Shown here one piece after another: positions 26,730 through 59,293 of a stretch of DNA of 64,000 nt (position 1 is the stretch's first letter; each line of letters begins with the position of its first letter). The DNA lies in the NCBI RefSeq assembly GCF_004365965.1, contig NZ_SOEB01000023.1:1-64000 (forward strand), read 5' to 3'. Source of the stretch: Rhodovulum visakhapatnamense (GTDB taxonomy: Bacteria; Pseudomonadota; Alphaproteobacteria; Rhodobacterales; Rhodobacteraceae). Below the pieces are notes generated by a model, which made no database searches, had not been told where the DNA came from, and worked only from the letters and a program-made list of their open reading frames with translations. Position numbers and translations under genes: made by a program.

Positions 26730-27185
26730 TCAGTGCCCCGCCGGCCCGGGCCGCACCAGGGTTTCAAGCGCCGCGCGCAAAGGCGCCGCCAGCGGGCTGG
26801 GGCGCCTCGTGGCGGCATCGACATAGACATGCACGAACACGCCCTCGGTCGCTGCGCTGTCCTCGTCGTTGCGGAACAGCCCGATCTCGTAGCGGACCGA
26901 GCTTCGGCCCAGATGCGCGACCCGTATCCCCGCCGTCACCCGGTCGGGAAAGGCCATCTCGGCGTGATAGCGGCAGCCGGTTTCGACCACGAGCCCGATC
27001 TGGGCGCCGCCCCGGATATCCAGCACCCCCGCCTCGATCAGCCAGCCGTTCACCGCCGTGTCGAACAGCGCGTAATGCACCACGTTGTTCATGTGGCCGT
27101 AGATGTCGTTGTCTTCCCAGCGCGTCGTCAGGCTGCGGAAGGCCGCGAAATCGGCGCGGCGGGCAGGGGCTGGTCGGTCGGCCAT
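26730..27185 (-). CDS. hotdog-fold acyl-CoA thioesterase (4HBT family)
   Basis: A 151-residue thioesterase. The motif WEDNDIYGHMNNVVHYALFD carries the catalytic Asp region of the 4-hydroxybenzoyl-CoA thioesterase/YbgC type. It hydrolyses an acyl-CoA, substrate unknown. It ends the transport operon that runs leftward from 35124, 14 bp after the SDR gene, and may release CoA from a pathway intermediate. Confidence 0.9.
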   Translation of the reverse strand: MADRPAPARRADFAAFRSLTTRWEDNDIYGHMNNVVHYALFDTAVNGWLIEAGVLDIRGGAQIGLVVETGCRYHAEMAFPDRVTAGIRVAHLGRSSVRYEIGLFRNDEDSAATEGVFVHVYVDAATRRPSPLAAPLRAALETLVRPGPAGH

Positions 27186-27199
27186 GGGGCGCGGTCCTC

Positions 27200-27949
27200 T
27201 CAGATCGTGCGGCCGCCATCGACCTCGAGGATCACCCCGGTGATGAAATCGGCCTCGTCCGATCCCAGATAAAGCGCTGCATTGGCCACGTCACGCGGTT
27301 CCGACAGCCGCCCCAGCGGGATCGTCGCGATGAAGCGTTCGCGGTTCTCGGGGGTGTCGGGCACGCCCATGAACTGTTCCAGAAGACCGGTTACGCCCAT
27401 CACCGGGGCGATGCCGTTGACCCGGACGCGGTCGGGCGCCAGTTCGACCGCCAGCGAGCGGGTCATCAGGTTCACCGCCCCCTTCGAGGAATTGTACCAG
27501 GTCAGCCCGGGCCGGGGCCGGATGCCCGCGGTCGAGCCGACATTCAGCATCACCCCCCCGCCCTGCGTGCGCCAGAGCGGCACGCAGGCCTTGGTCATGT
27601 GAAAGATCGACAGCACGTTGATGTCGTAGATCTTGCGGAAGGTGGCCTCGTCGGTCTCCATCAGCGGCTGGTTGCGGTTGGTCCAGCCCGCGTTGTTGAC
27701 GACGATGTCGAGCCTGCCGAAGGCCTCTTGCGTGGTGGCGACAGCGGCCGCGACCTCGTCGCCCTTCGAGACATCGCAGCCGATGGCCAGGGCGTTCTCG
27801 CCCAGCTCGCTGGCCACCGCCTTGGCGCGGTCGCGGTCGATGTCGACCACCGCCACCCGGGCGCCCTCGCGGATATAGGTCTCGGCGATGCCCCGCCCGA
27901 AGCCCGAGGCCGCCCCCGTCACCAGTGTCGCCTTGCCGTCCAGTCTCAT
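27200..27949 (-). CDS. SDR-family oxidoreductase
   Basis: A 249-residue short-chain dehydrogenase. The cofactor motif is TGAASGFGRG (residues 11-20). VVDIDRDR follows beta-2 and suggests NAD(H). NNAG is present, and the active site reads STAGIRPRPGLTWYNSSKGA with Ser, Tyr and Lys. FabG-like, it oxidises a secondary alcohol or reduces a ketone. It lies between the aldehyde dehydrogenase and thioesterase genes in the Liv-transport operon. Confidence 0.9.
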   Translation of the reverse strand: MRLDGKATLVTGAASGFGRGIAETYIREGARVAVVDIDRDRAKAVASELGENALAIGCDVSKGDEVAAAVATTQEAFGRLDIVVNNAGWTNRNQPLMETDEATFRKIYDINVLSIFHMTKACVPLWRTQGGGVMLNVGSTAGIRPRPGLTWYNSSKGAVNLMTRSLAVELAPDRVRVNGIAPVMGVTGLLEQFMGVPDTPENRERFIATIPLGRLSEPRDVANAALYLGSDEADFITGVILEVDGGRTI

Positions 27950-27976
27950 TCAGATCTCTCCGTTCCTCGATTGGCC

Positions 27977-29431
27977 TCAGCCATGGTGCGTCACGATGGT
28001 CTTGAGGGTGGTGAAATCGTGCAGCGCGGCAAAGCCCTTCTCGCGGCCATGGCCGGATTTGCGCCGGCCGCCGAAAGGCAGCTCGACCCCGCCGCCCGCC
28101 CCATAGCCGTTGACGAAGACCTGGCCGCAGCGCATCGCCTTTGCCACCCGCTGCTGGCGCGCGCCGTCGCGGGTCCAGACCGAGGCGACAAGCCCGTACT
28201 CGGTGCCGTTCGCGATGGCGATGGCCTCGGCCTCGTCCTCGAAGGGAATGACGCACAGCACAGGGCCGAAGACCTCTTCCTGCGCGATCCGCGAGCCCGG
28301 GTCGCAGGGCCCGAAGACCGCGGGCGCGACATAGAACCCGCCGTCGGGGGTCCCGGCCCGGATGCCGCCCCGCGCGATCAAGGGCGCCCCGGCATTGGCG
28401 ATATATCCCTCGACCCGGGCCTTCTGCCGGGCCGAGATCAGCGGGCCCAGCACCGAGTCCTCGCCCGAGTCGGACGCCTCGATGGCCTCGAAGCGCGCCT
28501 TGAGCCCGGCCATGACCGTGTCGAACACGCCCTGCTGCACCAGCACCCGGCTGCCGGCTGAACAGGTCTGGCCGCCATTCTGGATCACCGCATTGACGAG
28601 AACCGGCAGCGCGGCCTCTAGATCGGCATCGTCGAACACGATCTGCGGGGACTTGCCGCCCAGTTCCAGCGTGCAGCCGATGAAGTTGCGCGCGGCCTCG
28701 GTCTGGATCAGCACGCCCACCTCGGGCGAGCCGGTGAACGAGATGAAGTCGATGCCGGGGTGGCGCGACAACGCCGCCCCCGCGGTTTCGCCACGCCCCG
28801 TCACGATGTTCAGCGCGCCCGGCGGAAAGCCCGCCTCGACCGCCAGCGCCCCGATCCGGAGCGCGGTCAGGCAGGCCTCCTCGGCGGGTTTCAGGACCGC
28901 GGCATTGCCGGTCGCAAGCGCGGGCGCCACGGACCGGCCGAACATCTGCGCGGGATAGTTCCAGGGGATGATATGGCCGGTCACCCCATGCGGTTCGCGA
29001 TGCAGCTCGACATTGCAGTCCTTGAGAAAGGGAATGATCTCGCCATGCAGCTTGTCGGCCGCACCGCCGTAATATTCGAAATAGCGCGCGGTCACGGCCA
29101 TGTCGGCGCGGGCCTGGCGGATCGGCTTGCCGTTGTCGCGGCTTTCGAGCCGGGCCAGCGCCTCGGCCTCGTCCTCGATCCGGCGGGCGAGGCGCAGCAG
29201 AAGCCGCCCGCGCTCGGCCGCGGTCAGGCGGGACCAGTCGCCGCCTTCGAAGGCGGCGCGGGCGGCGGCGACCGCCGCGTCGACATCCTCGGGCCCGCTA
29301 TCGGCGATCCGGGCAAAGGGCTGGCCGTCGATGGGCGAGATCACGTCCATCGAGGCGCCCGAGGCGGCGGGCTGCCAGACATTGCCGATCAGGTTGGCGG
29401 GTTCGGGCAGCGGCAGGTCGGTTCGGGTCAT
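27977..29431 (-). CDS. aldehyde dehydrogenase family protein
   Basis: A 484-residue NAD(P)-dependent aldehyde dehydrogenase. The catalytic Glu is in LELGGKSPQIVF and the catalytic Cys in NGGQTCSAGSRVLV. The coenzyme loop ISFTGSPEVG and the end PFGGRRKSGHGREKG are typical of betaine-aldehyde-like ALDHs. The start at 29431 is preferred to the upstream ATG for its GAGAGG site and family length. Together with the neighbouring SDR and transporter it should oxidise an imported or derived aldehyde to an acid. Confidence 0.92.
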   Translation of the reverse strand: MTRTDLPLPEPANLIGNVWQPAASGASMDVISPIDGQPFARIADSGPEDVDAAVAAARAAFEGGDWSRLTAAERGRLLLRLARRIEDEAEALARLESRDNGKPIRQARADMAVTARYFEYYGGAADKLHGEIIPFLKDCNVELHREPHGVTGHIIPWNYPAQMFGRSVAPALATGNAAVLKPAEEACLTALRIGALAVEAGFPPGALNIVTGRGETAGAALSRHPGIDFISFTGSPEVGVLIQTEAARNFIGCTLELGGKSPQIVFDDADLEAALPVLVNAVIQNGGQTCSAGSRVLVQQGVFDTVMAGLKARFEAIEASDSGEDSVLGPLISARQKARVEGYIANAGAPLIARGGIRAGTPDGGFYVAPAVFGPCDPGSRIAQEEVFGPVLCVIPFEDEAEAIAIANGTEYGLVASVWTRDGARQQRVAKAMRCGQVFVNGYGAGGGVELPFGGRRKSGHGREKGFAALHDFTTLKTIVTHHG

Positions 29432-29444
29432 GGGGGCCTCTCGG

Positions 29445-30119
29445 TCAGGCGGGAATGGCATTGGGGTCCGGGGCGGCGACCTCGCCCCGTTCGATGACAA
29501 GCGTGCGGTCGGCGAAGCCGCGCAGCAGCGCGGGGTTCGATTCGGTGATCAGCAGAGTCACCGTCCGGTCGGCATCGCGCAGCGCGCGCAGCGCGTCGGC
29601 GTAGCGCAGCGCAAGCGCCGGGGCGAGGCCCTGGAAGGGTTCGTCCAGCATCACCAGCCGGGTGCCCAGCATCAGCGCCCGGCCCAGCGCCACCATCTTG
29701 CCCTGACCGCCCGAGACATTGCCCGCGGGCCGGTCGGCCATCTCTTTCAGCTCGGGCAGGATCGAATGGACCCGGTCGAGCCTGCGCTGCGTCTCGGCCC
29801 GGTCGAGCCGGGCGTTCTGCGCGGGCAGCAGCAGGTTTTCCTCGACCGTGAAGGCCGAGAACAGCCGCCGGTCCTCGGGCGCGTAGCCGATGCCAAGCCC
29901 CGGGCGGCGCGCGGGATGCATCGGCCCCAGCGGATGGCCATCAAGAAGGATCTTGCCGGTCACGTCGGTAAAGCCCATGACGGACCGCAGAAGCGTCGTC
30001 TTTCCCGCCCCGTTGCGCCCGATCAGCGCGACGGTCTCGGCCTCGCCGATCCGGAAATTCAGCCCGCGCAGGATCGGGATCTTGCCGATCGCGGCATCGA
30101 CAGTGCGAAATTCCAGCAT
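29445..30119 (-). CDS. branched-chain amino-acid-type ABC transporter ATP-binding protein (LivF)
   Basis: A 224-residue cytosolic ATPase. Walker A is GRNGAGKTTLLR, the signature NVSGGQGKMVALGRAL and Walker B LVMLDEPFQGL. Its ATG overlaps the LivG stop by ATGA. It energises the LivHM permease with LivG. The substrate is probably an organic acid or amide rather than a branched-chain amino acid, judging from the catabolic neighbours. Confidence 0.93.
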   Translation of the reverse strand: MLEFRTVDAAIGKIPILRGLNFRIGEAETVALIGRNGAGKTTLLRSVMGFTDVTGKILLDGHPLGPMHPARRPGLGIGYAPEDRRLFSAFTVEENLLLPAQNARLDRAETQRRLDRVHSILPELKEMADRPAGNVSGGQGKMVALGRALMLGTRLVMLDEPFQGLAPALALRYADALRALRDADRTVTLLITESNPALLRGFADRTLVIERGEVAAPDPNAIPA

Positions 30120-30868
30120 CAGACGGCCTCCCCGATGACATCGCGGATCACGTCGGGATGGTCCAGGATCTCGCGCGGGGTGCCGCGCAGCTGCACATTG
30201 CCCGCGTTCCAGACCGCGACCTCTTCGGCATGGCGCTCGACGATGCCCATGTCGTGTTCGACGAAGACCGAGGTCACTTTCCGTTCGGCCAGGGCCTCGA
30301 CCAGGATCTCCATGATCCGGTGCTTTTCCGACGAGGCGACGCCCGAGGTCGGCTCGTCCATCAGCAGAAGCCGGGGCCGCAGTGCCAGCGCGACGGCGAT
30401 GTCGACCAGCTTGCGCTGGCCCTCGGGCAGCTCGACCACCGGGCGATGCGCGGCATCGGCGCATTTCACCATTTCCAGCAGGTGCATCATCTCGTCCCTC
30501 TCGGGGATGCGGTGCAGGTCCATGAACGGGTTGCGCAGCCGGTCGCGGGCCGCGACCGCGATCAGCAGGTTTTCCAGCGCGGTATGTTCGGTGAACAGCT
30601 GCGGGATCTGGAAGGCGCGGGCCACGCCCTTCCGCACGATGGCACGCGGCGGCAAGGGGGTGACGTCCTCGCCCTCGAAGAGGACCTGGCCGGAACTTGG
30701 CTTGATCCAGCCGGTGCAGATGTTCAGGAAGGTGGTCTTGCCCGCGCCGTTCGGCCCGATGATGGCGAGGTTGCGCCCCGCCGTGATGGTCAGCGACACG
30801 TCATTGGCCGCGATCACGCCGCCGAAGCGGATCACGAGGTTGCGGGTTTCCAGCAGCGGCGCGGTCAT
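30119..30868 (-). CDS. branched-chain amino-acid-type ABC transporter ATP-binding protein (LivG)
   Basis: A 249-residue ATPase. Walker A is GPNGAGKTTFLN. The ABC signature is degenerate: VVELPEGQRKLVDIAVALAL replaces LSGGQ with LPEGQ, as seen in several Liv-type subfamilies. Walker B is LLLMDEPTSGV. It is ATGA-coupled both to livM upstream and livF downstream. Confidence 0.93.
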   Translation of the reverse strand: MTAPLLETRNLVIRFGGVIAANDVSLTITAGRNLAIIGPNGAGKTTFLNICTGWIKPSSGQVLFEGEDVTPLPPRAIVRKGVARAFQIPQLFTEHTALENLLIAVAARDRLRNPFMDLHRIPERDEMMHLLEMVKCADAAHRPVVELPEGQRKLVDIAVALALRPRLLLMDEPTSGVASSEKHRIMEILVEALAERKVTSVFVEHDMGIVERHAEEVAVWNAGNVQLRGTPREILDHPDVIRDVIGEAV

Positions 30869-31866
30869 TTGCGCGCCTCCCCGCGATGGGCAAGCGTCTC
30901 GATCATGCCGATCACGCCGCGCGGCGCGAAGAGGATGATGACCAGAAGGAAGCCGCCCAGCAGCATCTGCCAGACATCGCCCGCATAGGCCGAGGCATAG
31001 GTGCGGACCAGTTCGTAGATCAGCGCGCCGACAAAGGCGCCGCGCACCGACCCGGCGCCGCCCAGAACGGCGATGAAGACCATCTCGCCCGAGCGGATCC
31101 ACCAGGCGTATTCGGGCGTGACGACGCCCTGCGTCACCCCCATCAACGCGCCGCCGATTCCGCAAAGCGCGGCCGACACGAGATACCCCCACAACAGCGC
31201 CCGGCGCGGCGAGACGCCCAGATATTCCAGCCGGGTCTCGTTGGTCTTGAGGGTCTGGAAGATCTGACCCGCGGGCGAGGCCAGCCAGCGGATCGTGGCC
31301 CAGCCCAGGCCCAGCACCAGTGTCAGCGTGAGGTAAAACAGCACCAGCTCGAAGCTGGCGCGGTCGAGGTCCATCCCCAGTACGGCCGGGCGCGGCAGGC
31401 GGATGCCGTCGGCGCCCCCGGTGATGTGGTAGAACTTCTCGAGGAAGGACCAGAAGATCATCGAGAAGGCGAGGTTCAGCATGCCGAAGAAGATACCGCG
31501 ATAGCGCACCACGAAGAGCCCGACGCAAACCCCGGCCACGACCGCGCCCAGAAGACCCGCCAGCAGCACCAGGGCCAGGTCGGCGCCGGGCAGGGCGGTC
31601 ATCAGGAAGGCTCCGGCATAGGCGGCGACGGCGAAGTACAGCGCATGACCGAAGGACACCTGGCCCGCGCGCAAGAGCACGCTGACCCCGGCGACGGCCA
31701 GCCCCTTGGCCAGCGCCAGATTGACCAGAAGCTGCATCCCCGGCGCGCCGAGCGGCACCAGCGCCAGCAGCGCGAGGCCCGCCAGCGGCAGGACGGTTCC
31801 GGCCATCGAAGGCCCGCCCGCGGGGCGGCCCTGGCGGGATTTGTCCGGTTCTGTCGCATGGGTCAT
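30865..31866 (-). CDS. branched-chain amino-acid-type ABC transporter permease (LivM)
   Basis: A 333-residue inner-membrane permease with about nine hydrophobic helices. The region LRAGQVSFGHALYFAVAAYA is the usual LivM motif. It forms the channel with LivH. Residues 1-20 are hydrophilic and cytoplasmic. Confidence 0.92.
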   Translation of the reverse strand: MTHATEPDKSRQGRPAGGPSMAGTVLPLAGLALLALVPLGAPGMQLLVNLALAKGLAVAGVSVLLRAGQVSFGHALYFAVAAYAGAFLMTALPGADLALVLLAGLLGAVVAGVCVGLFVVRYRGIFFGMLNLAFSMIFWSFLEKFYHITGGADGIRLPRPAVLGMDLDRASFELVLFYLTLTLVLGLGWATIRWLASPAGQIFQTLKTNETRLEYLGVSPRRALLWGYLVSAALCGIGGALMGVTQGVVTPEYAWWIRSGEMVFIAVLGGAGSVRGAFVGALIYELVRTYASAYAGDVWQMLLGGFLLVIILFAPRGVIGMIETLAHRGEARK

Positions 31867-31878
31867 TGCCGGGTCTCC

Positions 31879-32784
31879 TCAGATCTTGCGGGCGGACGAG
31901 CTGCCGAAGAGGCCCTGCGGCCGCACCGACAGCACCGCGACCATGATCGCATAGGGCACGAGCGTTGCCGCCTCGGGCCAGACATAGACGGCGAAGGACC
32001 GCCCCAGCCCGATCATCAGCGCGCAAAGCGCCGCGCCCTCGATCTGGCCGAGCCCGGCGGTCGCGACGACGGCGAAGGACAGCACGATCATGTCGGCGCC
32101 CATCCCCGGCAGGATCGAGGTGGTGGGCGAGGCCAGCGCGCCGCCCAGCCCGGCCAGCGCCGCGCCGACGATGAAGGTGAACAGGAAGACCTTGTCGGCG
32201 TCGATGCCGATCGACTGCGCCGCCTCGCGGTCTTCGGTGGTGGCGAGGATCAGCTTGCCGATGATGGTGTGGCGCAGGAAAAACCGCATTCCCAGCAGCA
32301 GCGCCGCCGCGACCGCGGGCAGCAGGATCAGCTGATAGACGGTATAGGTCACGCCCAGCACGGTGACGTTGCCCAAAGCCTGCAGCGCCGTCGCCTCGAA
32401 ATAGGGCCGCGTGCCCCAGACCAGCCGCTGGACGTCCTCGAGGATCATGAAGACCGCGAAGGTGACCAGCAGTTGCAGCACCTCGGGCTTGTCGTAGATC
32501 CGGCGCAGCAGCAGCCATTCGATGGGCCCGCCCAGCAGCAGGCCGACCAGCACCGCCGAGACCAGCATCAGCGGAAAGGCGAGGATCGGCGCCAGCCCCA
32601 TCGCCAGCGCCCAGCCCGACAGCGACACGGTGGCATAGGCGCCGATGGCGTAAAGCGAGCCATGGGCGATGTTCAGGATGCGCATCACCCCGAAGATCAG
32701 GGTCAGCCCCAGCGCCACGATGAAGACGAGCGCGGCATAGGCGATGCCGTCGAAGAGCGCGAGAAGGAAAAGCGTCGGCGTCAT
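31879..32784 (-). CDS. branched-chain amino-acid-type ABC transporter permease (LivH)
   Basis: A 301-residue inner-membrane permease. LIFGVMRILNIAHGSLYAIG is the LivH hallmark near the N-terminus, and about eight helices follow. It is 12 bp upstream of livM and 59 bp downstream of the binding-protein gene. Confidence 0.92.
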   Translation of the reverse strand: MTPTLFLLALFDGIAYAALVFIVALGLTLIFGVMRILNIAHGSLYAIGAYATVSLSGWALAMGLAPILAFPLMLVSAVLVGLLLGGPIEWLLLRRIYDKPEVLQLLVTFAVFMILEDVQRLVWGTRPYFEATALQALGNVTVLGVTYTVYQLILLPAVAAALLLGMRFFLRHTIIGKLILATTEDREAAQSIGIDADKVFLFTFIVGAALAGLGGALASPTTSILPGMGADMIVLSFAVVATAGLGQIEGAALCALMIGLGRSFAVYVWPEAATLVPYAIMVAVLSVRPQGLFGSSSARKI

Positions 32785-32843
32785 GTCGGGTTCCGGTTGG
32801 GCAAATGCCGGACGGGCGGGGGTGCCCGTCCGGCCGTCCGGGC

Positions 32844-34130
32844 TCAGTCGGCGTAGGTGGCGACGCCGACCTGATCGAGGAAGCTCGCATCGAGCCCGCC
32901 GATCCAGTCGACCGAGACCTCGCCCACCGGCGCGGTGATGTCGGCGCCGTCGAAGATCATGATGTTCTCCAGCGTCGCGAAGGGGTGGTCCCCGGTCTGC
33001 ACGCTGGTCGCCATCAGCTGCGCCTCGATCCCCTGATGATCCTCGCGGATCGTCACCGGACGGCCGAGCCCCTGGAATTCGAGCCCGGCCATGGCGGCCA
33101 GCACCTGATCCTCGTCGGGCCAGTCGCCGCCATTGGCGGCGATCGCCTTTTCATAGACCGCCTGCAGCGCGGCGAAGGCCTGCGCGGTGTGGAACACCGG
33201 ATAGACCGAAATCTCGCCGGTCTTTTCCTCGTAGCGCGCCATGAAATCCTTGAACGCGTCGTCGTCGCGGCGTTCGGGATGGCGGAAATAGTGATCGCCG
33301 CGCGCCCCCACGATATGGCCCGAGGGCAGGCTTGACCCCAGCCGTTCCAGCGAGGATTCGGCCAGCGGCAGCACGAAGGTCGAGCTGTTCATCAGACCGC
33401 GCTGGGCCGCCTGCTGCACGAAGGTGTCGAGATCGCCGCCCCAGTTGGTCGAGAGGATCACGTCGGGCCTCAGCGCCTGCAGCCGCGAAATCTCGGTCGA
33501 GAAGTCGGGCGAGCCGAATTTCGGGAAGAACTCGCCCACCACCTTGACGTCAGGCTTCATCGCCATCAGCGCGGTGCGGAAGATGTCCCAGCTGTCGCGG
33601 CCCCAGGCATAGTCCTGGTTGACGACGGCGATGGTCTTGAAATCGGGATGGGTCTTCAGCAGGTAGATCACCGCGGCCAGCATTTCCGGCGTGGCGTTGG
33701 CCTGGGTGCGGAAGACGTATTTGTAGCTGTGTTCCTCGAAGATCTTCTGGGTGCCGCAATCCCACATGAAGTTGATGACCTTCAGATCCTCGGCCAGCGG
33801 CGCCAGGGTCTGGCAGTTGCCCGAGGAAATCGCCGCGAACATCACGTCGGCGCCGCCCGATTCCGCGAGCCTGCGGTATTCCGAGGTCAGCGTCTCGGCG
33901 CCCGCGCCCTCGTCGATGAAGCTGACCTCGACCGGCACGCCGCCGATCCCGCCTTGGGCGTTGATCGTCTCGACGAGGATCTCGGCCGCGTTCTTCGCGG
34001 GGACGCCGAAGACCGAGGCGGGCCCGGTCAGGAATGTGGTCATGCCGACCTTCAGCGACGCCGGTTTGTCGGCGGCCGCGGCGGTCAGCGGCATCGCGGC
34101 GCAAAGCGCCGTCAGCAGCCAGGTCTTCAT
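32844..34130 (-). CDS. ABC transporter substrate-binding protein (LivK/type-1 periplasmic)
   Basis: A 428-residue periplasmic binding protein with signal peptide MKTWLLTALCAAMPLTAAAA. The mature part begins LKVGMTTFLTGPASVFGVPA, which is the Liv/amide-type opening, and two Rossmann-like lobes follow. The ligand cannot be read from the sequence. It heads the livKHMGF set after the cyclase-family gene. Confidence 0.92.
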   Translation of the reverse strand: MKTWLLTALCAAMPLTAAAADKPASLKVGMTTFLTGPASVFGVPAKNAAEILVETINAQGGIGGVPVEVSFIDEGAGAETLTSEYRRLAESGGADVMFAAISSGNCQTLAPLAEDLKVINFMWDCGTQKIFEEHSYKYVFRTQANATPEMLAAVIYLLKTHPDFKTIAVVNQDYAWGRDSWDIFRTALMAMKPDVKVVGEFFPKFGSPDFSTEISRLQALRPDVILSTNWGGDLDTFVQQAAQRGLMNSSTFVLPLAESSLERLGSSLPSGHIVGARGDHYFRHPERRDDDAFKDFMARYEEKTGEISVYPVFHTAQAFAALQAVYEKAIAANGGDWPDEDQVLAAMAGLEFQGLGRPVTIREDHQGIEAQLMATSVQTGDHPFATLENIMIFDGADITAPVGEVSVDWIGGLDASFLDQVGVATYAD

Positions 34131-34158
34131 CCGGTTTTCCTCCCTGTTTTCCGGTTCT

Positions 34159-52316: not shown

Positions 52317-52605
52317 TCAGCTTTTCGTCAGGCGGACCCGCCGGAAATTGCGGATCTTGTCGGTGAACGGTCCGAAGCCCTTAAGCCGCGAATTCCGGCG
52401 TTTCATAGGCTTCCGGGCCGGTGATCGTGTAGATCGCCACATGGGCCGGGCCGCCCTCCAGACATTTCTCGCGCCGGGCGTCCAGCCAGCCGGGGCAGGC
52501 CAGGATGTCGGGCAGGTGGGTGTTGTTGTACCAGTCGTCGAAGGCGGCCTCGTCCTCGGGGTCGATATCGACGAAGACCATGTGCGTCTGATGGGTCTCA
52601 GGCAT
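52317..52605 (-). pseudogene. small dimeric alpha/beta-barrel protein, frameshifted near its C-terminus
   Basis: The frame from 52605 reads MPETHQTHMVFVDIDPEDEA and DDWYNNTHLPDILACPGWLD, the opening of small EthD/DUF4286-like barrel proteins. It stops at 52381 after YETPEFAA (74 residues). One base out of phase the sequence continues LKGFGPFTDKIRNFRRVRLT to a TGA at 52317, giving the expected length of about 97 residues. The shift lies at GCGGCTTAAGG. It may be a mutation, a base-calling error or programmed slippage. The 5' end overlaps the DapA-like gene by 8 bp. Confidence 0.7.
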
Positions 52606-53524
52606 CCAGATTTTCCAGACAGGGGGCAAGCGCTGCGGCCAAGCGATCGGTTTCGGCCGGGTCGATGGGTGGCGTCGGCGCGCGGCAGGCCGGGCTGTCG
52701 ATCCGACCGAGCCGTGCGAGGCAGGCCTTGAGCCGGGCGGCGGCCAGATGGCCCGGGCGCGCATAGACGAGCCTGGCCAACGCGAACAGCTTGCGGTGGA
52801 TCGTCAGCGCGGCGTCGGTCTCGCCCGCACGGACATGGGTGTCCAGCGCCACGATCAGGTCCGGGACCACGGCGGCGAGGCTGACGGCGGACCCGTCGCT
52901 GCCCAACTGGAAGCAGGCAAAGAGGTGTTCGTCGCCCGAGGCCATCACCGCCACATCGGGTCGAAGCGCGCGGGTCTGGCGCAGCGTGTCCTCATAGGCG
53001 CGGGTTTCCCAAGAGCCTTCCTTGATGCCGACGACCGCCTCGATCTCCAGAAGCGCGGCCAGCGTGTCGGGCGCGTAATGCAGCCCGCCCGAGCCGACCG
53101 AGCCCTGAAACAGGTAGACCGGCCCCTCGGCCGCCTCGGCGATACCCTTGTGATGCGCGACGATGGCGCGCGGATCGGCGCCAAGCGCCCAGGAGAAGGG
53201 GGCGAAGACCATGATCCCGTCGGCCCCGGCCGCGCGCGCGGCCCGCGCGTCGGCGGCGGCCTCGGCGGTCGATTCGGCGCTGACCGCCGCCAGCACCCGT
53301 TTGGCCGGGGCGATGGCCTTGGCATGGCGCACCACGGTCGCGGCCTCGTCGCGGGTCAGGAAGATGCCTTCGCCCGCATGGCCGTTCAGCAAGAGCCCGT
53401 CGAGCCCCCCGGTCGCCAGCACGGCCGCGAAATGCGCCTCGAGGCTGTCGACATCCAGCGCGCCATCCGCGCGCATCGGGCAGATGGTGGCGGCATAAAT
53501 CCCGCCATGGGGATGCGCGGTCAT
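52598..53524 (-). CDS. DapA-family lyase lacking the usual Tyr and Thr residues (copy A)
   Basis: A 308-residue NAL-superfamily protein. The Schiff-base lysine K168 (VVGIKEGSWE) is kept, but the catalytic tyrosine is F139 (PVYLFQGSVGS) and GTTGE is GHAGE (48-52). Chemistry other than classical dihydrodipicolinate synthesis is therefore expected. It overlaps the next DapA-like gene by one base, so the two may be made in a fixed ratio. Confidence 0.87.
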   Translation of the reverse strand: MTAHPHGGIYAATICPMRADGALDVDSLEAHFAAVLATGGLDGLLLNGHAGEGIFLTRDEAATVVRHAKAIAPAKRVLAAVSAESTAEAAADARAARAAGADGIMVFAPFSWALGADPRAIVAHHKGIAEAAEGPVYLFQGSVGSGGLHYAPDTLAALLEIEAVVGIKEGSWETRAYEDTLRQTRALRPDVAVMASGDEHLFACFQLGSDGSAVSLAAVVPDLIVALDTHVRAGETDAALTIHRKLFALARLVYARPGHLAAARLKACLARLGRIDSPACRAPTPPIDPAETDRLAAALAPCLENLDA

Positions 53525-54453
53525 CACAGCAGCTCCGCCTGGATCAGCGCCGCGCGGAGGCCCTCGACGATGGCCTCGGATTGCGGCAAGAGCGGCAGGC
53601 GCGGGGTTGCGCATTTGATGATGCCCATCATTTTCAATCCGTCCTTCATCCGGGTGTGCATGTCGACGACCGGGGCGGGGCCGTAGATCGCGCGCACCAC
53701 CGGGTAAAGCCGGTCGTTGACCGCGCGCATCCGCGCCAGGTCCTGCGCCTCGGAGGCCTGCCACAGCTCGGCCAGCAGGCCCGGCGTCAGCGAGGCGAGC
53801 CCCGACAGGATGCCGTCGCCGCCCAGCGCAAGCTGCGCGAAGAACCAATGGAAGTTCGAGGGCAGGATCGCGACATCGGGCGCCGCGGCCTTCACCGCGC
53901 GGCGGTTCTCGTCATAGGCGAGCATCGTGGCCGAGCCTTCCTTGATCGCGACGATCTCGGGGATCTGCGCCATCTCGGCCAGCGCCTCGGTCGAATAGCC
54001 GAAGCCCGAGGCAATCGGGAACTGGAAGACCGACATCGGCATCGCCAGCTCGCGGGCGAGCTTTTCCATGAAGGCCACGGGGGCCCTGGTCGAGGCGTTG
54101 CCGCCGCCCAGCGCCTCGGGCGGGAAGATCACGGCGACGTCGGCCCCCGCCTCGCGGGCGGCCTCGGCCTGTTTGACGGCCTCGGGATAGCCGGTGGGCA
54201 CCACGCCCGCCAGCAGCAGCCGGTCCTTGCCGATATGATCGCGGGTGGTGCGGATCACCTCGTCGCGTTCGGCCTCGCTCAGCGCGGTCGCCTCGCCGGC
54301 ATGGCCGTTGACGAAGACGCCATCGGTGGTCTCGGGCTTGGCGCAATGGTCGAGGACGGCCGCATAGCCCTCCCAGTCGATGGCACCCGTCTCGTCGAAG
54401 GGCAGAACGGTCGCGACCGTGATGCCGCGCAGATCCTTGCCGGTCAGGCTCAT
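53524..54453 (-). CDS. DapA-family lyase lacking the usual Tyr and Thr residues (copy B)
   Basis: A 309-residue paralogue of the gene that follows. The lysine is K171 (IVAIKEGSATM), F143 replaces the tyrosine (SVFQFPIASG), and the loop is GHAGE (50-54). The shared GHAGE and FQ signatures show that the pair is one subfamily, different from the standard DapA at 42.3 kb. It is ATGA-coupled to the MaoC gene upstream. Confidence 0.87.
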   Translation of the reverse strand: MSLTGKDLRGITVATVLPFDETGAIDWEGYAAVLDHCAKPETTDGVFVNGHAGEATALSEAERDEVIRTTRDHIGKDRLLLAGVVPTGYPEAVKQAEAAREAGADVAVIFPPEALGGGNASTRAPVAFMEKLARELAMPMSVFQFPIASGFGYSTEALAEMAQIPEIVAIKEGSATMLAYDENRRAVKAAAPDVAILPSNFHWFFAQLALGGDGILSGLASLTPGLLAELWQASEAQDLARMRAVNDRLYPVVRAIYGPAPVVDMHTRMKDGLKMMGIIKCATPRLPLLPQSEAIVEGLRAALIQAELL

Positions 54454-54884
54454 GTCGTCACTTTCTTTCGGGGGAATTTCAGGGTCGCGTCGGCCTTGAG
54501 GACCTCGGTGCCGTCCTCGTTGCGGGCCGAGGCCTGCCAGTCGACGGTACGGTTTTCCTCGTCCTTGGCGCTGATCCAGATCTCGAAGGTCAGGGTGTCG
54601 CCGTAGCGCACCGCGCCGGTGAACCAGAAGCTGTCGCGGATCGAGACGCCGAGCGTGCCCACCAGTTCGGCGGTCAGGACCGAGGTGCAGATGCCCGCGA
54701 CCAGGATGCCCGGCGCGAGACGCTCGCCGAAGCGGGTGCCCGAGGCATAGTCCTCGTCGACATGGACCGGGCCGAAATCGCCGGTGGCGGCGATATACAT
54801 CGCCCCGTCGGCCTCGGTCACGGTCTTGCTGACGCTGATGCGGTCGCCGACGCTCAGCTCGTCCATCTGACGGATGTCATACAT
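54450..54884 (-). CDS. MaoC-family hydratase (catalytic)
   Basis: A 144-residue hotdog protein. AATGDFGPVHVDEDYA contains the hydratase pair D36/H41. It overlaps DapA-like copy B by 4 bp and follows the non-catalytic-looking hotdog partner after 6 bp. Together they may form a heteromeric enoyl-CoA hydratase. Confidence 0.88.
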   Translation of the reverse strand: MYDIRQMDELSVGDRISVSKTVTEADGAMYIAATGDFGPVHVDEDYASGTRFGERLAPGILVAGICTSVLTAELVGTLGVSIRDSFWFTGAVRYGDTLTFEIWISAKDEENRTVDWQASARNEDGTEVLKADATLKFPRKKVTT

Positions 54885-54890
54885 GAGGGC

Positions 54891-55280
54891 TCAGCCCTCC
54901 CTGAGGACGAGCGTCGCCTCGCCCGAGACGACGGTCTGTCCGCCGATCTCGCCCTTCAGCTGGCAGACCAGGGACTTGCCCTCGGCACCGCCGCTGGTCG
55001 CGGTGGCCGCGAAAGTCTCACCCAAGGTGATCGTGCGGTGGAAGGACATCGAGATGTTGCCGATCCGGTACTCCGGACCCGCCAGCCGCGCCAGCGCGGT
55101 CGAGAACAGCGCCCCCGCCGCCAGCTCGAACACCGCCATGTCGGGCAGGCCCAGCGCCTGCGCCTTGACGCGGTCCACATGGGCCGGACCCAGATTGCCC
55201 GAGATGCCGGTGAAGAACCCCTGGTCGGCCACGGTCAGGGTCTTGCGGAAGGTGACCGACTGGCCCCGTTCGATACTCAT
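54891..55280 (-). CDS. MaoC-like hotdog protein lacking the catalytic Asp
   Basis: A 129-residue protein starting MSIERGQSVTFRKTLTVADQ. The hydratase motif is TGISGNLGPAHVDRVKA: H34 is kept but N29 replaces the Asp. The C-terminus reads VVSGEATLVLRE, usual for the family. It is probably a structural partner of the neighbouring MaoC; alternatively it could be a thioesterase-like hotdog. Confidence 0.8.
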   Translation of the reverse strand: MSIERGQSVTFRKTLTVADQGFFTGISGNLGPAHVDRVKAQALGLPDMAVFELAAGALFSTALARLAGPEYRIGNISMSFHRTITLGETFAATATSGGAEGKSLVCQLKGEIGGQTVVSGEATLVLREG

Positions 55281-55296: not shown

Positions 55297-56457
55297 TCAG
55301 AGGGTCAGGCCGCGCTTGATCACCGAGCGGGCGATCAGCATGCGGTGGATTTCCGAGGTGCCGTCATAGATCCGGGTTACCCGCGCATCGCGGTAGATGC
55401 GTTCCAGCGGCAACTCCTTGGTGAAGCCATAGCCGCCGAAGACCTGGATGCCCCGGTCGGCGACCCGGCCCAGCATTTCGGACGCCTGCACCTTGACCAT
55501 CGAGACCTTGTCGCGCGGGTCCATCCCCTGGTCGATCTCCCAGGCGGTGTTCAGCACCATCATCCGGGTCGCGAAGATTTCCATCGCGCTGTCGGCGATC
55601 ATCTGCTGGACCATCTGGAACTCGCCGATCGGCTGGCCGAACTGGTTCCGCGTGGCGGCATGTTCGCGCATCATTTCGAGAACGCGCGAGGCCATGCCGA
55701 CCGCCCGCGCCCCGATATGGCCAAGTCGGATGCCGCCGACATTGGCCATCATGACCTTGAAGCCCTCGCCCACCTCGCCGAGGATCTGGTCCTTCCGGAT
55801 GCGCACGTCGTCGAAGGTCATCTCGGCATGGCCATAGCCGCGATGGCCCATCATCGGCTGGTTGCGGGTGACCTTGAAGCCGGGCATGTCCTTGTCGACG
55901 ATCAGCAGAGTGATGCCGCCCCGCGCGCGCTTCTCGGGGTCGGTCACCGCCATGACGATGATGTAATCGGCGATGTCGCCGTCCGAGATGAAATGCTTGG
56001 TGCCGTTCAGCACCCAGTGATCGCCCTCCGGCACCGCCCTGGTCCTGATCGCGGCGGCGTCGGACCCCGCGCCCGGTTCGGTGATCGCCATGGCGCAGAT
56101 CTTCTCGCCCCTGACGGTGGGATAAAGATACTTGTCGCGCAGATCGCCCTTGAACTGTTCGAGCATCGGATAGACCTGCCCGAAGACCCGCCGGATCAGC
56201 GCGTCCGAGGTCTGGCCCAGCTGTTCCTCGACCAGACACATGTCGAGAACCCCGAGCCCGCCGCCGCCGACCTCTTCGGACATGTTCAGCGCGTAAAAGC
56301 CCAGCGCCTGCGCCTCGGCCCGGACGGCGGCCAGCTTTTCGGGCGGGATCCGGGCATCGGCCTCGGTTTCCTGCTCCAGCGGCTGGACCTTCTCGCGCAC
56401 GAAGCGGCCCACCGCCTCGGTCACCATCTTCATCTCGTCGGAAATCGTGAAATCCAT
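55297..56457 (-). CDS. acyl-CoA dehydrogenase (YDGT variant)
   Basis: A 386-residue FAD enzyme. MAITEPGAGSDAAAIRTRAV and QVFGGYGFTKELPLERIYRD are typical. At the catalytic-base position the motif is IYDGTSEIHRM, with D365 where most members have Glu. It is 5 bp after the CoA-transferase and 16 bp before the hotdog gene in the same operon. It should dehydrogenate the CoA ester made by the transferase. Confidence 0.92.
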   Translation of the reverse strand: MDFTISDEMKMVTEAVGRFVREKVQPLEQETEADARIPPEKLAAVRAEAQALGFYALNMSEEVGGGGLGVLDMCLVEEQLGQTSDALIRRVFGQVYPMLEQFKGDLRDKYLYPTVRGEKICAMAITEPGAGSDAAAIRTRAVPEGDHWVLNGTKHFISDGDIADYIIVMAVTDPEKRARGGITLLIVDKDMPGFKVTRNQPMMGHRGYGHAEMTFDDVRIRKDQILGEVGEGFKVMMANVGGIRLGHIGARAVGMASRVLEMMREHAATRNQFGQPIGEFQMVQQMIADSAMEIFATRMMVLNTAWEIDQGMDPRDKVSMVKVQASEMLGRVADRGIQVFGGYGFTKELPLERIYRDARVTRIYDGTSEIHRMLIARSVIKRGLTL

Positions 56458-56462: not shown

Positions 56463-57665
56463 TTACCCCCGCATCCGGTCGGTCTGCGCCACGGCACCGG
56501 CTGCAAGGAGCGCGTCGATCTCGTCAGCGCCAAGGCCCGCCTCGGCCAGCACCTCGCGGCTGTGTTCGCCCAGCGCGGGCGGCGTCATCCGGACGGGCGG
56601 AGTTTCGCCGTCATAGCGAACCGGATGGGCCAGCATCACCATGGGCGAGCCGCCCCGGGTCTCGGCCTCGACGAAGGCGCCCAGATGTTTGACCTGCGGG
56701 TTCTGGGGCAGGGCGTCGTAATCCTCGACCGGGGTGTGCCAGACGCCCGCCGCCTCCAGCAGCGGCAGCGCCTCGGCCATGGTCAGGCGGGCCATGCCCC
56801 GCTGCACCAGCGTCGCGATCTCGCCGCGCCTGGAAAAGCCGTCCTCCTCGGTGAAGGCGGCCAGCTCGGGCAGGTTCAGCGGTTCTGCCAGATCGGCGGG
56901 TTTGCACATCGAGATCATGACATGGCCGTCGCTGACCGCGTAGATCCCGTAGGGCGCCGGGCTGAACCAGTTGGCCAGCCCCGCCTCGCCGCGCGGACCC
57001 TTGCGGTTCGCGCCGTTCATCCAGGCGGTGATCGACTCGCCCTGCAGGTCGAGCGCGGCCTGCAGCATGTTGACCTCGACCTTGCGGGCGGTGCCTGTGC
57101 GCTCGCGCTCGAACAGGGCCGCGACGATGCCGCCCGCGGTCAGCGCGGCGGCATGGTGGTCGATCGGCACGGTGCCGATGGCGACCGGCCCGCCTTCGAG
57201 GCTGCCGGTATGGGCGGCAAGCCCCGACATCGCCTGCAACAGCACGTCCTGGCCGGGGAGCTTCGCATAGGGGCCGTCGGCGCCGTAACCGGTGGTCGCG
57301 GCATAGATGATGCGGGGATTGATCCGGCGCAGCTCGGCCTCGCCCAGCCCGAGCTTCTCCATCGTGCCGGGGCGGAAGTTCTCCATCACCACATCGGCGG
57401 TCGCGATCAGTCTCCTGACCGCCTCAAGGGCCGCTGGCGCCTTGAGGTCCAGCGCGAGAGAGCGCTTGTTGCGGCCGGTCGTCATGTGGTTGACGCTGGT
57501 ATCGTCGACAAAGCGGTTGGCGACGGCCCAGTTGCGCTGGAACACGCCGCCGATGGGCTCGATGGCGATCACATCGGCGCCCATGTCGGCCAGATGCTGC
57601 GCCGCGGCGGGGCCCGACAGGAAATGGTTGAAGCTGAGAATCCGAATGCCGTCGAGCGCGCCCAT
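56463..57665 (-). CDS. CaiB/BaiF-family (class III) CoA-transferase
   Basis: A 400-residue enzyme. FNHFLSGPAAAQHLADMGAD is the CaiB opening, and the catalytic aspartate is D140 (PGQDVLLQAMSGL). MENFRPGTMEKLGL and KRSLALDLK are conserved. It moves CoA between carboxylic acids. I chose the ATG at 57665 because GAGGAC precedes it; another ATG lies four codons upstream. It heads the operon that continues through the dehydrogenase, MaoC pair and DapA pair. Confidence 0.92.
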   Translation of the reverse strand: MGALDGIRILSFNHFLSGPAAAQHLADMGADVIAIEPIGGVFQRNWAVANRFVDDTSVNHMTTGRNKRSLALDLKAPAALEAVRRLIATADVVMENFRPGTMEKLGLGEAELRRINPRIIYAATTGYGADGPYAKLPGQDVLLQAMSGLAAHTGSLEGGPVAIGTVPIDHHAAALTAGGIVAALFERERTGTARKVEVNMLQAALDLQGESITAWMNGANRKGPRGEAGLANWFSPAPYGIYAVSDGHVMISMCKPADLAEPLNLPELAAFTEEDGFSRRGEIATLVQRGMARLTMAEALPLLEAAGVWHTPVEDYDALPQNPQVKHLGAFVEAETRGGSPMVMLAHPVRYDGETPPVRMTPPALGEHSREVLAEAGLGADEIDALLAAGAVAQTDRMRG

Positions 57666-57764
57666 GTTAGTCCTCATCTGAAGGTCCCGCCCAACGTAGC
57701 GCCCGGCCGGGCCGGGCAGGAATATGCGTCGCTATCTTATTTTTCGCAGAGGTAATTTGTCTGC

Positions 57765-57824
57765 CCTATAGTCTGGCCTATAGTCGCGCCTGTGGTCGGG
57801 CCCATTGTCCGACCTGTCGGCGAT
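57765..57824. repeat. 12-bp imperfect tandem array between CoA-transferase and racemase genes
   Basis: Units begin every 12 bp: CCTATAGTCTGG, CCTATAGTCGCG, CCTGTGGTCGGG, CCCATTGTCCGA, CCTGTCGGCGAT. The first two include the palindrome CTATAG, so ATAG-N6-CTAT also forms a LysR-like dyad at 57768-57781. The array lies in the divergent promoter region (57666-57887), 100 bp before the CoA-transferase start. Confidence 0.65.
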
Positions 57825-57887
57825 GGTCTTCCGGCCTGCCGCAACCCAAGACGTGACGTGCAGAGCCCGCCGCGGCATGGTTGCGCC

Positions 57888-58532
57888 ATGACAGAGATTC
57901 GTCTGATGAACCCCAACAGCGCCCCGGAGGTGACCGCGTCCATGTGCGAAATCGCGGCGCGCGCCCTGCCGGTGGCGCCGATCGGCTGGACCGCGCCTGC
58001 GGGACCGCCGCTGATCGTGACGCCCGAGGCGCTGGCCCGTGCCGCCGAAGGGATCGCGGCGGCCGAGGTCCCGGGGCGGCCCGACGCGGTGATCGTCGCG
58101 GCCTTCGGCGATCCGGGTGCCGAGGCGCTGGCCGCCCGTCTGGCCTGTCCGGTGCTTGGCATCGGCGCGGCGGCGGCCCGCGCGGCCGCCCGGTCGGGCC
58201 TGCCCTTCGCGGTCGCGACCACCACGCCGGGGCTCGAGGCCCAGATCGACGCGCTGATGCGGCGCCATGCGGACGGTGCCCCCTATCTCGGCTGCCGCTT
58301 CGCGGCGGGCGATCCGGTGGCGCTGATGCGCTCCGAGGCGGCGCTCGACGCGGGCCTGCTGGCCGCCATCGCCGAGGCGCAGGTGGCGGGCGCCGCGCAG
58401 GTCGTCATCGGCGGCGGCCCGCTGGGGGCTGCGGCGGAACGGCTGCGCGACCGGTCGCCGGTGCCGCTTCTGAACCCGGTGCTCTGTGCCGCCGAGGAGG
58501 TCGCCGCGCTTTTCGAGGTGCAACATGTCTGA
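57888..58532 (+). CDS. Asp/Glu/hydantoin racemase-family protein without the two cysteines
   Basis: A 214-residue protein that starts MTEIRLMNPNSAPEVTASMC, the family opening. The two catalytic cysteines of this superfamily should lie in the ACFGDPG and LGCAG-like motifs; here they read IVAAFGDPG (A72) and VVIGGGPLG (Gly). C20, C87, C136 and C206 lie elsewhere. Normal racemisation by two thiols is thus unlikely. It overlaps the hydratase pseudogene by 8 bp and is divergent from the CoA-transferase. Confidence 0.82.
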   Translation: MTEIRLMNPNSAPEVTASMCEIAARALPVAPIGWTAPAGPPLIVTPEALARAAEGIAAAEVPGRPDAVIVAAFGDPGAEALAARLACPVLGIGAAAARAAARSGLPFAVATTTPGLEAQIDALMRRHADGAPYLGCRFAAGDPVALMRSEAALDAGLLAAIAEAQVAGAAQVVIGGGPLGAAAERLRDRSPVPLLNPVLCAAEEVAALFEVQHV

Positions 58533-59293
58533 GGTCGAGAGTTTCGCCGCCGCCCTGATCGCCGCGCATCGGAGCGGGCCGCGCGTCGCCGAGGCGCCTT
58601 GGGCGTTGACGCGGGCCGAGGTGCTGGCGGTGCAAAGCCGCGTCTCCGGGGCGCTCGGCTTGGTCGCGGGGTTCAAGGTCGGGCGTCTGCCCGAAGGGCC
58701 GCCGGTGCTGGCGCCGATCCCTGCTTGGTATCGGGGGCCGGATGACGGCCGCCGGGTGGTGTGCGTCCGGCTGGGGGGCGAGCTTGAACCGGGGTTCGAG
58801 CAGATCCGCGCGCTGTCGGAGGCGGGCCTGCCGGCCGAGCCCGCCCCCCATTTCCGCCCCCCATTTCCGCCGCCGTGCCGTCTTCGAACTGGTCGAGACC
58901 CGACTTGCGGGCGCCGCGGCCGACCGGCCCGACCTCAAACTCGCCGATCTTCAGATCACCGCCGGGCCGGCGCCGGGCTCGGGAGACGAGGCCTGGGACG
59001 GCCGCGATTTCGGCCCGCTGTCGGCGCAGTTCCGGGCCGACGCCGACACCGTGCTTGACGGCGAAACCGAAGCGCCCGGCGGTTTGGCGCTGGCCAATCC
59101 CGACCTGCTGCTGCGCCATCTGGGCCGCCTTCGCGGCGGTTTGCAGCCGGGACAGACGATGATTGCCGGGGCAGTCTGCAGGCTGCCCTGGTTCGAACCG
59201 GGCACGGATCTGCCGGCCGAGATCGCGGAACTTGGACAGGTCGCGGTCAGTCTGGTCCGAGCGCCAGCGTCGGCCATTCGAAAGGCGGTGTGA
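58525..59293 (+). pseudogene. 2-keto-4-pentenoate hydratase-like (FAH superfamily) gene, frameshifted by a 13-bp duplication
   Basis: The first ~110 codons (MSEVESFAAALIAAHRSGPR, GLVAGFKVGRLPEG) and the last ~140 (RAVFELVETRLAGAAADRPD, GGLALANPDLLLRHLG) are the two halves of one MhpD-like hydratase in different frames. The shift comes from a perfect tandem 13-bp repeat at 58842-58867. Removing one copy gives PAPHFRRRAVFELVE in frame and a protein of about 251 residues. All else looks intact, so the loss is recent or the locus is switchable. Confidence 0.85.
58842..58867. repeat. perfect 13-bp tandem duplication inside the hydratase gene
   Basis: CGCCCCCCATTTC occurs at 58842-58854 and again at 58855-58867 without a spacer. 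Thirteen is not a multiple of three, so the two-copy state breaks the gene and a one-copy state restores it. Confidence 0.95.

Follow-up and report, generated by a model that had tools for sequence, protein, structure and literature searches.

The 64,000-nucleotide stretch of Rhodovulum visakhapatnamense DNA that we analyzed (the window) carries, between positions 26730 and 59293, three adjacent accessory modules rather than one pathway, and we call these A, B and C. Module A (26730-37402, genes on both strands) comprises, on the minus strand, a 4HBT thioesterase (26730-27185), an SDR (27200-27949), an ALDH (27977-29431), the Liv importer LivF, LivG, LivM, LivH and LivK (29445-34130) and a PF04199 cyclase (34159-35124), and, on the plus strand, a Zn-ADH (35315-36439) and a LysR regulator (36476-37402). 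Module C (57888-59293, plus strand) holds an Asp/Glu/hydantoin-racemase family protein (57888-58532) and a hydratase-like gene (about 58522 to 59293). The latter includes the last open reading frame (58742-59293), which has no Pfam match; the gene runs in two frames here and as a single 240-aa frame in another genome of the genus (G014), and it owes its label to 34% identity with a gene annotated as 2-keto-4-pentenoate hydratase.

Between them lies module B (37410-57677), 20.3 kb with 23 genes, counting one that is broken. It begins on the minus strand with an AMP-dependent acyl-CoA ligase (37410-38930), a DUF3830 protein of cyclophilin-like fold (PF12903, 38927-39343), a first TRAP importer (DctM 39355-40641, DctQ 40641-41162, DctP 41237-42211) and DapA1 of the class I aldolase/dehydratase family (42273-43154). 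The plus strand then carries a tautomerase-like protein that starts MPFIE (43273-43638), the acyl-CoA dehydrogenase ACAD1 (43706-44848), the hydratase MaoC1 (44845-45288) and a GntR/FCD regulator (45291-45989). A D-hydantoinase-type dihydropyrimidinase (DHPase, 46023-47435) and a second TRAP importer (DctP 47515-48480, DctM 48522-49802, DctQ 49799-50374) follow on the minus strand, with an HpcH/HpaI-type aldolase (50569-51366) on the plus strand. The remainder, all on the minus strand, consists of a second LysR regulator (51361-52287), a small DUF4286-like gene (about 52320-52590), DapA2 (52598-53527) and DapA3 (53524-54453), both of the class I aldolase family with a GHAGE motif, MaoC2 (54450-54884), MaoC3 (54891-55280), ACAD2 (55297-56457) and, at the far end, a family III CoA-transferase of the CaiB type (56463-57677).

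The gene families named in the original prediction are present by Pfam and NCBIfam: three importers (LivFGMHK and two TRAP systems, each with DctP, DctQ and DctM), the cyclase, the CoA ligase, the CaiB-type transferase, two acyl-CoA dehydrogenases, three DapA-like proteins, the HpaI-type aldolase, ADH, ALDH, SDR and three regulators (two LysR, one GntR). Its three hotdog proteins are in fact four (one 4HBT, three MaoC), and the DUF3830, DUF4286-like and racemase-family genes are additions to its list. The overlapping operons it described are also there, with five neighboring gene pairs in module B overlapping by 4 bases. The DUF4286-like gene is split over two frames in the window and intact at four other loci (L158, L160, L047 and L049), and its Pfam match is below the cut-off. 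The tautomerase likewise scores just below its Pfam cut-offs; tblastn matches it in the window and at nine further loci, among them that of the query, and copies at L158, L160, L044, L045 and L046 start MPF like that of the window, with MPY at L165.

All three DapA-like proteins of module B keep the Schiff-base lysine. TIGR00674 (cut-off 206.15) is just passed by DapA1 (209.9) and missed by DapA2 (105.7) and DapA3 (109.5). DapA1 reads YNNPFT, with no arginine after YNxP, a residue that we take to be R138 of Escherichia coli DapA, and DapA2 and DapA3 have no YNxP motif; the lysine-arginine signature of 4-hydroxy-tetrahydrodipicolinate synthase is thus incomplete in all three. N-terminal, middle and C-terminal domains are matched in both acyl-CoA dehydrogenases. 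At the catalytic position, presumably the Glu of IYEGT, ACAD1 has the usual Glu in all seven sequences compared and ACAD2 has Asp in all seven, so the ACAD2 reaction may not be an ordinary dehydrogenation. MaoC2 keeps the Asp/His motif and MaoC3 has Asn in place of its Asp; the two probably form a heteromeric hydratase.

The three modules are distributed differently. Among 16 same-genus genomes, A and C are each present in two and B in four, and G014 is the only one of the other 15 in which module C is matched throughout its length. Across a 341-genome sample of the order, the module A cyclase occurs at 59% identity or more in nine genomes and a module B marker in four. A Palleronia plasmid carries a module A-like set of an ABC ATPase, two permeases, a binding protein, cyclase, ADH and LysR. 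Comparison with four relatives lacking the island gave no clean empty junction, the genes to the left of SPFH not being CtpA-NUDIX. The original prediction had read all 32 kb as one pathway, had proposed gene order in relatives as a test and had named independent occurrence of the sub-operons as evidence against itself. We find that order is kept across genera over the 20.3 kb of module B, for which the reading as one unit is supported, whereas A and C occur apart from B; module A is not part of the B pathway unit, and module C is not part of module B.

Module B itself is one unit, in which a cyclic amidohydrolase is linked to CoA chemistry. It is contiguous over 20.3 kb at 89-94% DNA identity in three same-genus genomes besides that of the window, and all 23 genes recur in the same order and relative orientation, with CaiB and CoA ligase at the ends, in two genomes of other genera (G392 and G509). 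Parts of it were found at eight of 80 loci examined (L044-L050 and L052), of which L046 belongs to the environmental marine strain Salipiger marinus DSM 26424; these and G392 and G509 are distinct genomes, with at most 86% identity in the compared stretches. Between the window and G392, dN is below dS for all 20 genes compared of the 23. No description of a cluster combining cyclic-amide hydrolysis with CoA chemistry was found in the literature searched, which supports the earlier suggestion of an undescribed pathway for module B only.

The DUF3830 protein matches PF12903 at 106.1 bits (E 2e-30; gathering score 26), the only Pfam family found for it at E ≤ 0.001; it has no PF04115 (ureidoglycolate lyase) domain. 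The gene is coupled to hydantoinase genes: in the order sample, a DHPase-family homologue is found no more than 8 kb away in seven of eight DUF3830 genomes, including three of the four outside module B. In a class-wide sample (20 of 37 DUF3830 places), a ureide-type neighbor occurs at 5 of 20 loci and at 1 of 14 controls (6 of 20 planned controls do not exist and 3 of the 14 are short), a difference that is not significant (P 0.36). Among close relatives (the best 80 of at least 553, set against the same 14 controls and split by genus by hand from titles), the link is found at 42 of 42 Bradyrhizobium loci, one titled only Bradyrhizobiaceae, and at 26 of 38 others, or 20 of 30 leaving out eight module B loci. 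With a strict set of ring-opener and uric-acid neighbors, these same best 80 of at least 553 give 41 of 42 and 17 of 30. DUF3830 resembles carbonyl-amine enzymes in fold only, at 12-17% identity. Its invariant residues are R42, E62, E84, N104 and H105. We propose that it may be a urea- or amine-releasing or other C-N enzyme, likened to ureidoglycolate lyase by functional analogy only. It need not replace that lyase, because PF04115 is encoded elsewhere in all 13 module B genomes tested (it is absent from four of six Bradyrhizobium genomes tested). We found no mention of DUF3830 in the literature searched.

We tentatively favor a reading of module B as a single catabolic unit for an acid carrying a cyclic amide or ureide, degraded by ring opening and a CoA route. 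Its substrate, reaction order and every catalytic role are inferred from gene families and gene partners. The two TRAP systems would import the cyclic compound, a related open-chain acid or both, and ring opening by the D-hydantoinase-type enzyme would give a ureido or amide acid. Either the CoA ligase or the CaiB transferase would then form a CoA thioester for dehydrogenation by ACAD1 and ACAD2, and MaoC1 and the MaoC2-MaoC3 pair would hydrate the product, placing the hydroxyl on the nitrogen-bearing carbon. The resulting carbinolamide could lose urea or amine with the help of DUF3830 in the window and of ureidoglycolate lyase in a version from Comamonadaceae, and a local N-carbamoylase would then be unnecessary. 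Finally, the tautomerase, DapA1-3 and HpaI may convert and cleave the oxo acid into pyruvate- or glyoxylate-sized pieces. A narrower form of this scheme, a CoA-dependent deureidation in which DUF3830, with its cyclophilin fold and outside the ureidoglycolate lyase family, itself breaks the carbinolamide apart, giving urea or amine together with an oxoacyl compound for aldolase cleavage, is speculative and on balance improbable. As for candidate substrates, we considered biotin, nicotinate, hydroxyproline, pantoate, sugar acids and cyclic imides, and the evidence favors none.

A serious though rather doubtful alternative is that the CoA part (CaiB, CoA ligase, ACADs, MaoCs, DapAs, HpaI and tautomerase) degrades an amide-free organic acid, and that DHPase, the second TRAP importer and DUF3830 are travelling companions for a different, nitrogen-supplying substrate. 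In Thioclava, most of the CoA part sits on two plasmids, in two pieces, with no dihydropyrimidinase or DUF3830 within the stretches seen, and no Thioclava record is among 37 plasmids with DUF3830. A DHPase ortholog is absent from two genomes with parts of B (G666 and G682); in the first, at L049, an allantoinase-like gene and a scrap read as transposase take its place. Nor do the names of solved structures related to the two DctPs (best 60 of 102 for each) include an amide binder; most are named only as DctP subunits and some as sialic-acid or isethionate binders. However, the ortholog (79% identity or more) is kept in 12 of the 14 genomes that have all or part of B, and the genes for DUF3830 and the CoA ligase share 4 bases. 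The Comamonadaceae version, in which one plasmid has counterparts of 14 of the 23 genes, likewise has a hydantoinase, DapA2 and HpaI in a single gene run. That hydantoinase is 40% identical to the one in the window, no closer than the housekeeping paralogue; a class I CoA-transferase replaces the CoA ligase, an amino-acid-type ABC importer replaces TRAP, and a PF04115 ureidoglycolate lyase lies within the gene run containing CaiB. In Azospirillum-type operons, a DapA1-like gene, DUF3830 and hydantoinase recur together.

It is unlikely that module B serves ordinary hydantoin or pyrimidine use, with DHPase forming an N-carbamoyl acid, a chromosomal N-carbamoylase finishing the job and the other enzymes handling the amino or keto acid. 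The enzyme itself fits such a role. Consistent with the full metal site first reported, all expected motifs are found (H58, H60, K151, H183, H239 and D317, the HxH, K, H, H and D residues that we take to be the binuclear metal site of D-hydantoinase/dihydropyrimidinase). Two curated cut-offs, that for D-hydantoinase among them, are passed (TIGR02033, 520 bits against 393; PRK13404, 742 against 647), and the nearest solved relative is the D-hydantoinase 1NFG. The original prediction had noted a missing N-carbamoylase; that is true of the region, but two TIGR01879 genes over cut-off lie elsewhere in the genome. One is paired with another DHPase on contig C48; given these two N-carbamoylases, the argument drawn from the gap is weak. 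Such a pairing, with a DHPase 39-41% identical at most 1.4 kb from a TIGR01879 gene, was present in 12 of 12 genomes tested, with or without B, which argues that the DHPase of module B is an extra paralogue with another substrate. As the host's pyrimidine enzyme we rejected it, since it is the second paralogue and the other adjoins the N-carbamoylase. Nor did domain searches of module B turn up an amino-acid dehydrogenase or an aminotransferase. The earlier reading of all 32 kb as one pathway we rule out as wholly improbable: the modules are adjacent in the host genome and G014, but A and B meet only in those two genomes of the 341, both of this genus, B stands without A or C in G001 and G015, and the LivK-cyclase-ADH set of module A occurs in three genomes without the B marker (G433, G512 and G492).

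Module B is thus a bounded and rare 23-gene unit linking cyclic-amide hydrolysis to CoA chemistry, and DUF3830 gains a testable context beside cyclic-amide and ureide enzymes. If our favored route is correct, ureido acids could give up their nitrogen by a further means in addition to N-carbamoylase and ureidoglycolate lyase, and the route could help predict substrates for importers that travel with module B genes. Should the deureidation reading hold, DUF3830 would represent a novel class of enzymes in the ureide metabolism of bacteria and haloarchaea.

Known systems share parts of this design. Reductive pyrimidine catabolism uses dihydropyrimidine dehydrogenase, dihydropyrimidinase, N-carbamoylase and an aminotransferase. 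The same dihydropyrimidinase family occurs in module B, but domain searches of its genes found neither the dehydrogenase nor an N-carbamoylase, and it has a CoA ligase, CoA-transferase, ACADs, MaoCs and DapAs instead. Hydantoin utilization relies on hydantoin racemase, D-hydantoinase and N-carbamoylase; module B has the D-hydantoinase and no carbamoylase, and a racemase-family gene lies nearby in module C. Paracoccus denitrificans and Defluviimonas carry hydA with TRAP and an Asp/Glu-racemase-family gene; none was seen beside module B in G001, G015 or G392, and the G509 contig ends at CaiB. With the uric acid/allantoin pathway, the Comamonadaceae version of B shares ureidoglycolate lyase, and in Bradyrhizobium DUF3830 adjoins a polysaccharide-deacetylase-family gene (a PuuE-type reading) and OHCU decarboxylase/HIUase genes, although module B has no allantoin-specific gene. 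The solved structure 3KOP, which DUF3830 matches by profile and by fold, is itself an uncharacterized protein.

The 3,3'-thiodipropionate route of Variovorax paradoxus TBEA6, as far as the part of its description consulted goes, concerns sulfur rather than nitrogen, uses other hydratase genes and has no cyclic amidohydrolase mentioned (PMC6370202). It does treat an acid with a beta heteroatom through a CoA-transferase, acyl-CoA dehydrogenase homologues and two hydratases; loss of the enoyl-CoA hydratase genes stopped growth, and the CoA-route chemistry is only postulated (PMC6370202). By analogy, thiodipropionate catabolism may offer a precedent for a CoA route acting on an acid with a beta heteroatom.

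Codon-model gene calling with Pfam and NCBIfam confirmed nearly all the families first named in the 32 kb at 26730-59293. Hotdog proteins were present, four rather than three, and two families that the original prediction had not named were found: a DUF3830 protein (38927-39343, Pfam) and an Asp/Glu/hydantoin-racemase family protein (57888-58532). The DUF4286-like gene (about 52320-52590) and the hydratase-like gene ending at 59293 are each split over two frames in the window, and relatives carry intact copies. The original observation is partly confirmed and its interpretation partly supported.

The reading of the 32 kb as a single pathway is contradicted, because the region consists of three modules with separate distributions across genomes: A (26730-37402, with Liv importer, cyclase, ADH, ALDH and SDR), B (37410-57677, 23 genes) and C (57888-59293). 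We split the region in two and searched it at the nucleotide level against every one of the 16 genomes available for the genus; it was present in the host (G000) and one relative (G014). Two others (G001 and G015) gave a contiguous match of about 20.3 kb at 89-91% identity, starting within the CoA ligase gene's final 50 bases and stopping just beyond the CaiB gene, and their gene lists show unrelated genes at the module B edges; for the remaining 12, the best among the matches listed by E-value were short paralogue matches. Across 341 genomes sampled from the order, one and the same set in both searches judged by genome handles, the module A cyclase reached at least 59% identity in nine and E <= 1e-60 in 24, the module B aldolase-family marker DapA3 occurred in four, and the two coincided only in G000 and G014. 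LivK-cyclase-ADH sets were found in genomes G433, G512 and G492, and on a Palleronia plasmid cyclase, ADH and LysR genes accompany an ABC importer. This distribution, together with the edges and the A-type sets elsewhere, makes modules A and C passengers relative to module B. The module A PF04199 cyclase (34159-35124) starts with what reads as a signal-peptide-like stretch and may be periplasmic, alongside the Liv binding protein. In Defluviimonas and Paracoccus denitrificans (loci L004 and L168), Asp/Glu-racemase family genes recur with TRAP and hydA genes, joined in Defluviimonas by a 2-keto-4-pentenoate hydratase, so module C may be part of another hydantoin-type set.

Module B, by comparison of genomes, is one unit. 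Two genomes of other genera (G392 and G509) hold the same 23 genes in identical order and relative orientation, ending at CaiB on one side and the CoA ligase on the other, and each of the 20 genes for which window and G392 were compared had a dN lower than its dS (DctQ1, DapA2 and the DUF4286-like gene were left out). Scanning a genome collection with a DUF3830 alignment, we found module B parts at eight loci among the best 80 of 553 matches: in Poseidonocella, Alloyangia pacifica, Salipiger marinus, Salipiger mucosus, Haematobacter missouriensis, Pseudooceanicola endophyticus, a MAG and Puniceibacterium sediminis, the last on a 3.3-kb contig that holds three module B genes. The CaiB half directly follows the CoA ligase at L047 and L049 and is absent from the fetched stretch at L044-L046, L048 and L050. 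These eight genomes, G392 and G509 are distinct from each other. At the usual dihydropyrimidinase position, Pseudooceanicola carries an allantoinase-like gene (41%) together with a transposase-like scrap (L049:27-1572). The Salipiger mucosus DapA1 match consists of two overlapping pieces (L050:5176-6052), and the gene may be split over two frames.

The module B dihydropyrimidinase (46023-47435, minus strand) has an ortholog (at least 79%) in 12 of the 14 genomes with module B or its parts, namely the four same-genus ones, G392 and G509, and six of the eight partial ones; none was found in G666 and G682. Module B does lack an N-carbamoylase, as first noted, but the incompleteness read from this is not proven, since the host has copies in trans. 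All 12 genomes tested, with module B or not, carry another dihydropyrimidinase, 39-41% identical, at most 1.4 kb from a TIGR01879 N-carbamoylase. Gene lists at host contig C48 and in G001 are consistent with an ordinary pyrimidine set (other neighbours named by sequence reading), and contig C29 of the host holds a uric-acid-type set with ureidoglycolate lyase, so that both gene kinds are available in trans. The extra dihydropyrimidinase in module B suggests another substrate. A nucleoside hydrolase gene closely follows the CoA ligase gene on its downstream side in Alloyangia (L045:11051-11953), and one lies near the Thioclava plasmid version (L001:16639-17532); this could hint that the substrate derives from a nucleoside.

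A close DUF3830 relative occurs in eight of the 341 order genomes, seven of them with a dihydropyrimidinase-family homologue within 8 kb: inside module B in G000, G014, G392 and G509, and outside it in G553 and G339 (less than 1 kb away, only 33-34% identical) and G577 (4.5 kb). The eighth, G543, has none within 8 kb. Among the best 80 of 553 matches, a ureide- or amide-hydrolase-type neighbour was present at all 42 Bradyrhizobium loci and at 20 of 30 non-Bradyrhizobium loci outside module B, compared with one of 14 controls (P 0.00026 for the 30; neighbour types picked by us, controls from other genomes). A class sample had DUF3830 in 29 of 289 genomes, with such a neighbour at only 5 of 20 stretches versus 1 of 14 controls (P 0.36); the association is therefore limited to the window's DUF3830 subfamily. 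Neighbours also include polysaccharide-deacetylase-family and OHCU decarboxylase/HIUase genes and, in part of 37 plasmid records with DUF3830, dihydropyrimidinases (Azospirillum, Paraburkholderia, Agrobacterium), acetamidase with ring-opening amidohydrolase (Skermanella) and Zn-dependent hydrolases (Paracoccus, Halorubrum); a Thalassospira locus had no such hydrolase. An Azospirillum-type operon (L005, L040, L057, L110, L118) combines GntR, amino-acid-type ABC, DapA1-like, flavoprotein (fused Fer2/Pyr_redox/DAO by Pfam in L040), hydantoinase and DUF3830 genes; L070, L074, L079, L093, L104 and L109 are partly similar, without a hydantoinase match. A PF04115 ureidoglycolate lyase match is missing from four of six tested Bradyrhizobium genomes with DUF3830 (G673, G674, G675, G677).

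The DUF3830 protein exceeds the Pfam cut-off and has one clear solved relative by profile search, 3KOP (E 4.6e-9 with an 11-sequence profile, 3.1e-5 with 32 closer sequences), also the top structural match of its predicted model (pLDDT 86.7). Further matches include TM1367, ordinary cyclophilins and the Pictet-Spenglerases KslB (TM 0.66-0.80 by query length over KslB chains, 13-17% identity) and McbB, enzymes coupling an amine to a carbonyl compound; judged from the model, the likeness is one of fold only. The Schiff-base lysine is kept in DapA1, DapA2 and DapA3; DapA2 and DapA3 share a GHAGE motif. In true DapA an arginine comes after YNxP, and DapA1 does not have it. MaoC2 keeps the Asp and His of the usual hotdog hydratase motif in five of five sequences, whereas MaoC3 has Asn for the Asp in five of five, which, given the roles of these residues in the motif, suggests a catalytic and a non-catalytic subunit. 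The acyl-CoA dehydrogenase ACAD1 keeps the IYEGT Glu and ACAD2 has Asp there (7/7 each). Solved relatives of either DctP do not settle their ligands.

The simplest route found that covers every gene type in module B, all its steps proposals, would run from TRAP import through ring opening, CoA activation, dehydrogenation, hydration and urea or amine loss by DUF3830 to aldolase cleavage, and would account for the absence of a local N-carbamoylase. Its main rival is that the CoA part and the dihydropyrimidinase serve different substrates. Thioclava sp. GXIMD2076 carries the module's two halves on two plasmids, with neither dihydropyrimidinase nor DUF3830 in the stretches examined. Of the 23 genes, 14 have counterparts on a plasmid of Comamonadaceae bacterium OTU4NAUVB1 (CaiB, ACAD2, MaoC2, MaoC3, DUF4286-like, DapA2, HpaI, LysR2, MaoC1, ACAD1, tautomerase, DapA1, a third DapA and hydantoinase) at 40-73% identity to the window copy (for the tautomerase and DUF4286-like genes, to the G509 or G392 copy). 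The plasmid's hydantoinase, only 40% identical, may have been recruited separately. The Comamonadaceae version has a class I CoA-transferase and an amino-acid-type ABC importer where module B has a CoA ligase and TRAP; DUF3830 is not annotated in the stretches read, and a PF04115 ureidoglycolate lyase lies in the gene run holding CaiB. In the proposed single route, ureidoglycolate lyase in Comamonadaceae and DUF3830 in Rhodobacterales would hold comparable places. Our literature searches found no description of a module B-like cluster and, as far as they reach, module B is a catabolic unit without published description. The nearest published precedent found for its route is thiodipropionate catabolism (PMC6370202), where the acid carries sulfur at the beta position and its use involves two hydratases, acyl-CoA dehydrogenase homologues and a CoA-transferase.
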